Shown piece by piece: positions 17,301-18,729 of a DNA stretch of 64,000 bases. This stretch comes from Gracilibacillus salitolerans (GTDB lineage: Bacteria > Bacillota > Bacilli > Bacillales > Amphibacillaceae): contig NZ_CP045915.1 in the NCBI RefSeq assembly GCF_009650095.1, positions 1,240,001-1,304,000 of the forward strand, given 5' to 3'. Under the pieces are notes generated by a model. That model saw only the letters and a program-made list of their open reading frames with translations. It was not told the DNA's origin and did no database searches. Position 1 is the first letter of the stretch. Each line of letters starts with the position of its first letter. A program made the position numbers and the translations under genes.

Positions 17301-17305
17301 GTAAG

Positions 17306-17364
17306 AAGGTACCTCCTCCCAAAAAGTTAGATTTTTCACTTTATCTTTCGGGAGGAGGTACCTT
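17306..17364 (+). terminator. Strong orphan hairpin (15-bp perfect stem)
   Basis: AAGGTACCTCCTCCC pairs perfectly with GGGAGGAGGTACCTT around a 29-nt loop, and four Ts lie at the 3' edge. The right arm contains a GGAGG core and the left arm its complement. No gene ends just upstream on the plus strand, so this may terminate an unseen small transcript or insulate the promoter that follows. Confidence 0.6.
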
Positions 17365-17410
17365 TTCAAATTACACAGTTTCTTTTTAAATAATCATCAT
17401 TTACCTCGGG

Positions 17411-17433
17411 TAAAACGTAATGATTACTATTTA
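17411..17433. promoter_or_regulatory. Zur-type operator, box 1
   Basis: A 23-bp near-palindrome with core CGTAATGATTAC, matching the Bacillus zinc-repressor (Zur) box TAAATCGTAATNATTACGATTTA at all but two defined positions. Nine of 11 arm bases are symmetric. It overlaps the -35 element of the promoter at 17430-17458. Confidence 0.75.
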
Positions 17434-17458
17434 CAAAGAAAGGCAGGAGAGTTATAAT
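17430..17458 (+). promoter_or_regulatory. SigA promoter of the flavoprotein gene
   Basis: TTTACA (17430-17435), a 17-base spacer, then a perfect TATAAT (17453-17458). One Zur-type box overlaps the -35 and a second covers the expected start point, the geometry of a repressed promoter. The untranslated leader is about 100 nt. Confidence 0.8.
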
Positions 17459-17463
17459 ATCCA

Positions 17464-17486
17464 CAAAACGTAATCATTATGAATTG
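17464..17486. promoter_or_regulatory. Zur-type operator, box 2
   Basis: Second box with core AAAACGTAATCATTATGA, about five turns (53 bp centre to centre) downstream of box 1. Eight of 11 arm positions are symmetric. It covers the likely +1 region of the promoter. Confidence 0.65.
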
Positions 17487-17565: not shown

Positions 17566-18729
17566 GTGTATAAATGGATTATTATTGGTGGTGGGATTCA
17601 TGGATGCACAATTGCGGTTCATTTATTAAAAAGTGGGAAGGTAGAACCCAATGAACTATTAATTGTTGATCGTTATGAAAAACCTCTACACAAGTGGTCA
17701 ATGATCACAAGTAAGATAGGAATGGATTTTCTTCGCTCTCCATCTGTTCACCATATTGATCAAGACCCATTCAGTTTGCAGAATTATGCTAAAGATATGG
17801 GAGGGATAAACTCCTTTCTTGGAAGATATAAAAGACCACGATTAGATTTCTTTAATGACCACTGTTATGAATTATTAGATTCAATATCTATCCAGAATAT
17901 GTGGTATCAAGCAGAAGTGCATGATATTCGCTCGTTTAATGGCAATTGGCGTATATATACAAATCAACATAACTTCTTTGAAACGAATTATGTGGTATTA
18001 GCATTGGGTGTAAATGAACAGCCTGCATTCCCTGACTGGGCTCTCCCACTGAGAGAAAAAGAACCTGACAAGGTAAAACATATTTTTGAGGAAGAGGCAG
18101 AAGTAAAGCAAGAAGTTGGCGATGTTTGTATTATAGGTGGTGGAATCTCAGCAGCACATTTAGCAACAAAATTATGTGCCATAACAAATGGAAAAGTCAC
18201 ATTAGTAAAGCGACATCCTTTTAGAATTCATGATTTTGACAGTGATCCGGGTTGGTTAGGACCTAAGCGTTTAGCCAAATACAACAAAGTATCAAATTTT
18301 ACTAAACGTCGATCCATTATTAATAAGGCTCGACTCCGGGGATCAATTCCACGAAATATGTTTTTAAAATTAAAGAAATGCCAAGCTGATCATCGATTAG
18401 AGGTTATTGATGATGAAGTCAAAACTGCTTCTTATTATGACGGTGAAATTCGTTTATCTTTTGCAAAATATGACTCACGAAAGTTCTCTTGTATTTGGTT
18501 AGCTACAGGTTCGCAAGCTAGGATTCCGGAAAAACAATTAATGGATAAATTGATTGTAAATGAAAATTTACCATGTGCTTCGTGTGGATTTCCGATAGTA
18601 AATAAGCAATTAGAATGGAAAAAAGGCTTGTATGTTTCTGGTGCATTGGCAGAATTGGAGGTTGGCCCAGTTGCACATAATATTTCTGGGGCTAGGAAGG
18701 CGGCCGTTAAATTAGCGGGGTTAGCTTAA
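17566..18729 (+). CDS. FAD/NAD(P)-binding monooxygenase-like flavoprotein, probably zinc-regulated
   Basis: Cytoplasmic protein of 387 residues with two dinucleotide-binding motifs: IIIGGGIHGCTIAVHLL at the N-terminus for FAD, and CIIGGGISAAHLA near residue 187 for NAD(P)H. This layout resembles the lysine/ornithine N-hydroxylase and flavin monooxygenase families, but the closest subgroup is one usually annotated only as FAD/NAD(P)-binding protein. A CxxC pair, Cys337 and Cys340 (PCASCGFP), near the C-terminus could be redox active or bind metal. GTG 17566 follows GAAGGGGA at 11 bases. Two Zur-type boxes sit on its promoter, so expression is expected under zinc starvation. A role in zinc-sparing metabolism or metallophore chemistry is inference. 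Confidence 0.75.
   Translation: MYKWIIIGGGIHGCTIAVHLLKSGKVEPNELLIVDRYEKPLHKWSMITSKIGMDFLRSPSVHHIDQDPFSLQNYAKDMGGINSFLGRYKRPRLDFFNDHCYELLDSISIQNMWYQAEVHDIRSFNGNWRIYTNQHNFFETNYVVLALGVNEQPAFPDWALPLREKEPDKVKHIFEEEAEVKQEVGDVCIIGGGISAAHLATKLCAITNGKVTLVKRHPFRIHDFDSDPGWLGPKRLAKYNKVSNFTKRRSIINKARLRGSIPRNMFLKLKKCQADHRLEVIDDEVKTASYYDGEIRLSFAKYDSRKFSCIWLATGSQARIPEKQLMDKLIVNENLPCASCGFPIVNKQLEWKKGLYVSGALAELEVGPVAHNISGARKAAVKLAGLA

Follow-up and report, generated by a model that had tools for sequence, protein, structure and literature searches.

A 64,000-nucleotide stretch of the Gracilibacillus salitolerans genome (the window; positions 1,240,001-1,304,000 of the single 5,088,110-base contig that was scanned as the genome) raises the question of why a flavoprotein gene should carry what look like two operators of the zinc repressor Zur. 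The gene (17566-18729, plus strand, GTG start) encodes a 387-residue protein predicted to bind flavin adenine dinucleotide (FAD) and NAD(P), and the putative operators bracket its promoter at 17411-17486. As a sequence-only reading of the window had noted, the product is not a textbook Zur-controlled protein (transporter, CobW or ribosomal paralogue). That reading proposed a zinc-starvation flavoprotein under Zur, for which the sites, their conservation and the zinc-gene context all speak as far as sequence can. The best overall explanation is that this is probably a Zur-regulon gene for a zinc-economy flavin enzyme. Its place in the Zur regulon, under Zur repression, is the firmest part of that explanation and very likely to be right.

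Operator 1 (AAAACGTAATGATTACTATTT, 17412-17432, plus strand) deviates at two of 20 positions from the 21-mer AAATCGTAATNATTACGATTT, taken here to be the Zur consensus, and operator 2 (AAAACGTAATCATTATGAATT, 17465-17485, plus strand) deviates at three of 20. Both contain the CGTAAT-N-ATTA-type core ascribed to them earlier, in the form of the 11-base sequences CGTAATGATTA (17416-17426) and CGTAATCATTA (17469-17479). They lie 53 bp apart from start to start, with 32 nt between the 21-mers, and flank a TTTACA -35 hexamer (17430-17435) and a TATAAT -10 hexamer (17453-17458), both on the plus strand and separated by 17 bp. The claim of a perfect SigA promoter is slightly too strong, since 11 of the 12 consensus bases match. 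As had also been claimed, box 1 overlaps the -35 hexamer, and box 2 starts near the predicted (unmapped) transcription start. This arrangement (box, TATTTACA, spacer, -10, box) is also found in the corresponding promoters of Gracilibacillus suaedae and Amphibacillus sediminis, and in the genome's own rpsN2/COG0523 promoter, whose -35 hexamer is identical. Box 1 has an aligned counterpart in both relatives, and the counterpart of box 2 is strong in G. suaedae and weaker in A. sediminis. This shared layout supports steric repression through presumed binding of Zn-Zur. Under zinc-replete conditions, Zn-Zur dimers on both operators would cover the -35 hexamer and the start, blocking RNA polymerase; when zinc runs out, Zur would leave the DNA and allow expression together with rpsN2, the COG0523 metallochaperones, ZnuABC and ZinT. 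A similar doubling is described for yciC of Bacillus subtilis and Bacillus anthracis, with two Zur boxes each and, in B. anthracis, 33 nt between them (PMC6336718), although yciC encodes a COG0523 GTPase and not a flavoprotein. Further upstream, between two divergent genes, lies a hairpin (17304-17366; 17-pair outer stem with one G-U, -34.4 kcal/mol, z -7.7) with no evident transcript to terminate and an arm sequence that is unique in the genome.

Sites of this quality are rare by chance. At a threshold of three or fewer mismatches over the 20 counted positions, boxes 1 and 2 are the only sites in the window, and 60 simulated 64-kb sequences with its dinucleotide make-up yielded a single site and never a pair within 80 bp. 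The genome-wide scan that had been proposed finds 13 places, compared with two for the reversed pattern. Eleven of them, the two window boxes included, fall at candidate zinc loci (labelled partly by reading and partly with Pfam): two precede rpsN2-COG0523 and one precedes a second flavoprotein gene of the same cluster, two lie by znuA, and one each by znuC-znuB with a Fur-family gene, by zinT, by a FecCD-type importer and by a permease/TIGR03943-like pair. Among the zinc genes of this genome, ZinT, cobW and the Fur-family gene are assigned by Pfam, and rpsN2, znuA, znuB and znuC by reading. The Fur-family gene (PF01475, 100 bits) follows znuCB and has a box in front; its NCBIfam matches are only to PerR, Fur and Irr models, all below cut-off.

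The boxes are also conserved in front of related genes. Of 524 relatives in a one-genome-per-species collection, the best 80 loci were analysed, a box being counted as conserved from a score of 27 (of 32) upwards. Such a box lies within 350 nt upstream of the flavoprotein in 67 of the 80 loci, compared with 75 of 3150 controls, windows from elsewhere in those loci with other zinc genes among them. Counting from the inferred start of the operon raises the number to 73 of the 80. A second sample, chosen by kinship and partly overlapping the first, draws on 121 genomes, 23 of which contribute 24 loci, the window's own among them; a box is present within 350 nt in 17 of these loci and within 1500 nt in 21. 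Missing boxes upstream of orthologues had been named as grounds for abandoning the idea, and these counts are of the opposite kind.

The neighbourhood of the gene points in the same direction. Neighbours were labelled by clustering and reading, with Pfam for some members and record annotation. Within 4 kb, COG0523 genes are found in 54 of the 80 loci, S14 in 38, ZnuA in 17, L33 in 14 and L31 in 10, and at least one of the five in 66; in 35 loci the COG0523 gene is directly downstream on the same strand. Recurring gene orders are S14-L31-hypothetical-flavoprotein and flavoprotein-COG0523-L33. A Cytobacillus locus (L096) adds dCTP deaminase, FolE2, a Cnt-like importer and a CntE-type exporter, and in Metabacillus bambusae (L109) genes resembling cntK, cntL and cntM, plus cntA, stand behind the flavoprotein. 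A protein of about 120 residues also recurs in the zinc clusters, at L067:10910-11290 and 29 further loci, and lies within 4 kb of the flavoprotein in 29 of the 80; neither Pfam nor NCBIfam matches the L067 member.

This association extends beyond Bacillaceae. A tblastn search of plasmid records gave 21 records, from which 15 regions were read. All three cyanobacterial regions are zinc-linked, through hemB and folE or through a zinc ABC importer, hemB and a GTP-binding protein. Seven of eight haloarchaeal regions have S14, a GTP-binding gene (presumably COG0523-type) or a metal ABC importer nearby, with S14 and hisI as the neighbours in Haloferax, and two Bacillaceae plasmid regions are likewise zinc-linked. 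In Bacillales, cyanobacteria and haloarchaea alike, members of the flavoprotein family turn up repeatedly in gene clusters for zinc economy.

Some members or look-alikes have already surfaced in work on zinc. In Synechococcus sp. PCC 7002, the FAD-dependent oxidoreductase SYNPCC7002_G0132 on pAQ7 (28% identity; equated with the gene read here by counting back from G0137/G0138) has no CxxC and answers to a cyanobacterial regulator. G0132 is reported to be raised by deletion of the zur-type regulator A2498 and by TPEN, alongside hemB-II and folE-II (PMC4628125). The Staphylococcus aureus homologue (35% identity) has AAATCGTAACGATTACGCTTT just upstream of its start and, of the CxxC pair, retains the second cysteine only. 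From its place beside mnhG and the mnh operon, it is presumably NWMN_0815/SA0806. That gene is listed as a pyridine nucleotide disulfide oxidoreductase with 229 in the calprotectin fold-increase column and a 17.5-fold rise with sulfide (PMC5480029). In Corynebacterium glutamicum, cg0795 is a Zur-repressed oxidoreductase gene divergent from the COG0523 gene cg0794, with operators over both promoters and band shifts with Zur (PMC2823685); it is likened to the flavoprotein by description, and C. glutamicum has a PF13454 match.

Several observations weigh against this interpretation. Taken by itself, the 11-base core shows no enrichment across the genome (24 matches against 51 for the reversed control); it is the extended form of the sites, together with where they lie, that carries the signal. 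Two of the 13 genomic places (2623877 and 4616745) lie inside genes with no apparent zinc link, and in B. subtilis in vivo binding is associated with only 40 of 167 predicted boxes (PMC4324032). Among relatives, seven of the 80 loci lack a box even at the operon start (L072, L087, L100, L111, L116, L127 and L129), the best box of the Saliterribacillus orthologue (67% identity) lies 375 nt upstream, the second box of A. sediminis scores 25 of 32, and the A. sediminis gene itself (73% identity) contains an in-frame TAG. None of the five strict zinc genes is found within 4 kb in 14 of the 80 loci. Zinc neighbours are also absent from the Salinigranum region, from the S. aureus region, where a box is nevertheless present upstream, and from a distant, weak match in Salimicrobium (26% identity). 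Finally, at a threshold of E 1e-30 the flavoprotein goes unmatched in 98 genomes of a set of 121 that includes its own, which makes it an accessory part of the zinc response. Across the phylum, three of 398 scanned Bacillota genomes have it, this one among them, and all three belong to the same order as the window; aerobic life may be connected with its presence, but kinship confounds such a link.

Other candidate parts of the zinc response of this genome came to light as well. Three Zur-type boxes in a row (scores 26, 29 and 28; genome 3375004-3375111, L140:9005-9112) lie in the gap that separates znuA from a divergent YtkA-like lipoprotein gene. Another box, with one mismatch, precedes a siderophore-type importer (L142:5549-9380, genome 307548 on) that consists, by reading, of Peripla_BP_2, FecCD and ATPase components and may serve zinc-metallophore uptake. 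The second Zur-boxed flavoprotein (L143:4822-5943, plus strand; genome 338821-339942, box at 338795) has no meaningful BLAST match to the window flavoprotein and ends in a cysteine cluster; it is 44% identical to a protein of the Haloferax zinc cluster, which also holds a nucleoside-recognition protein, and is close to S. aureus structure 3d1c. In this genome, the cluster of the second flavoprotein contains a FeoB-like GTPase with a Gate domain (L143:5919-7604, plus strand). dCTP deaminase, a zinc-free enzyme, occurs within COG0523/Zur clusters (L143:8832-9380, plus strand; L096:4096-4665), possibly as a zinc-sparing replacement for a zinc-dependent cytidine or dCMP deaminase.

The protein itself gives some indication of its chemistry. 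The closest named protein, from G. suaedae (84% identity), has an ATG at the position of the window GTG start, and downstream of 18729 no plus-strand frame of at least 80 codons occurs before 19528. The predicted fold, with two dinucleotide domains, is that of amine/ornithine N-hydroxylases, and by this prediction the product is a flavoprotein built like the class B N-hydroxylating monooxygenases. Profile alignment to the genome's own N-hydroxylases reaches 96% probability over 310 columns, without settling the substrate-site residues. The Pfam model Lys_Orn_oxgnase matches at 26.6 bits (cut-off 21.3) over residues 65-214 only, below NAD_binding_9 (51.2 bits), whereas two full-length N-hydroxylases elsewhere in the genome score 404 and 392 bits. 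Class B enzymes carry the motifs GxGxxG for FAD and GxGxxA for NADPH, and an ATG motif. Conservation was counted over 82 Bacillaceae rows and eight rows from S. aureus, cyanobacteria and haloarchaea; G8/G10/G13, G191/G193/A196 and A313-T314-G315 are kept in most of both, with Ser at position 196 in 12 of the 82. The CxxC pair pointed out earlier does not define the family: of the 82 Bacillaceae rows, 71 retain C337 and 79 retain C340, and none of the eight other rows has both. Identity to PvdA, SidA, DfoA and DesB is only 13-18%, the conserved motifs LRSPxVHH and DSDPGW are distinct from those of the class B enzymes, and, unlike them, the flavoprotein has no recurrent siderophore pathway nearby. 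Searches of PDB sequences gave general FAD/NADPH matches. As a further point against a specific reading, this fold is common to many reactions, so that monooxygenase activity is only presumed. The likeliest description, though at less than even odds, would be a flavin enzyme that depends on NADPH and, by oxygenating or oxidising some small metabolite, stands in for, or supports, a zinc-requiring step.

A narrower version, in which the flavoprotein directly replaces one specific universal zinc enzyme in the manner of rpsN2, FolE2, HemB-II and the HisI paralogues, is possible and somewhat doubtful. Substitute-type neighbours are S14, L31, L33, FolE2 and dCTP deaminase in Bacillaceae, hemB and folE beside the cyanobacterial homologues, and S14 and hisI in Haloferax; however, there is no obvious zinc enzyme whose reaction a flavin enzyme would match, and the remaining neighbours are importers and metallochaperones.

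Two further proposals are each improbable. In the first, the enzyme N-hydroxylates an amino acid or amine to give a hydroxamate-type or other zinc ligand, an idea raised by the sequence-only reading. The N-hydroxylase-like fold is in its favour, as is the single locus in 80 (L109) where the gene precedes a cntKLM-cntA-like operon; as a general role it fares badly, because opine dehydrogenase is rare or not found and no metallophore family is recognised among the commonest neighbours. Staph_opine_DH (PF10100) was not found in this genome, in a search whose controls also gave nothing. Among 50 flavoprotein-bearing genomes drawn from those of the 80 loci, it passes the cut-off in two, strong matches that show the search to work, with two further partial matches below cut-off. 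None of the 28 most recurrent neighbour clusters is recognised, by reading, as a metallophore-biosynthesis family; a GNAT acetyltransferase cluster occurs in eight of the 80 loci. The genome already has its two full-length N-hydroxylases, one of them in an IucA/IucC operon that showed no box with a score of 25 or higher, and its two PF04183 matches both belong to this siderophore operon. In the haloarchaeal and cyanobacterial regions that were read, most neighbours are zinc-sparing paralogues, GTP-binding proteins or importers.

In the second, equally improbable proposal, a flavin dithiol oxidase or reductase would free thiolate-bound zinc or disarm zinc-chelating dithiols. The precedent is DnoP of Pseudomonas aeruginosa, a flavin oxidoreductase induced by zinc starvation (PMC11317636). 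DnoP is a TrxB-type dithiol oxidase with an essential CxxC, and the dithiol oxidases as a group (GliT, HlmI, DnoP) have this catalytic pair, whereas the window family has none that is family-wide, and similarity to this fold is below that to N-hydroxylases. The position taken as diagnostic for YpdA, Cys14, has a Cys in 51 of the 82 Bacillaceae rows and in none of the eight others. YpdA bacillithiol disulfide reductase itself was rejected as an assignment (26.9 bits, family cut-off 339.9).

Least of all, and very improbably, the boxes would serve a different repressor of the Fur family, either Fur or PerR, with the gene answering to iron or peroxide: Fur, PerR and Zur boxes have a common 7-1-7 layout and PerR and Fur models, all sub-cut-off, best match the gene beside znuCB, but the extended operator is common to the own rpsN2, znuC, znuA and zinT regions, the homologues' neighbours are zinc genes, and the Synechococcus homologue is derepressed in a zur mutant.

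The preferred reading therefore remains a Zur-regulated zinc-economy flavin enzyme. A bolder form of it, with rather long odds, is a zinc-starvation flavin monooxygenase of bacteria and archaea with a new substrate and reaction, which would work with COG0523 metallochaperones and either make an intracellular zinc ligand from a common metabolite or replace a zinc enzyme in some novel way. A Zur-repressed auxiliary enzyme is of a known kind; the Bacillaceae members and the uniting of the reported cases appear to be new, and the open-licence PMC literature, in the passages retrieved, offers no function for the family and no work tying its members together. Zur-regulated oxidoreductases with no assigned function have so far been reported organism by organism. 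The genes of Bacillaceae, S. aureus, Synechococcus 7002 and haloarchaea now form one family, mostly in a zinc-economy neighbourhood and with an N-hydroxylase-like predicted fold, so that scattered "unknown oxidoreductase" entries become one testable enzyme with tractable hosts for finding its substrate. Since its relatives stand among the zinc-saving genes of many bacteria and haloarchaea, the flavoprotein may represent a widespread component of the response to zinc starvation that can now be tested.
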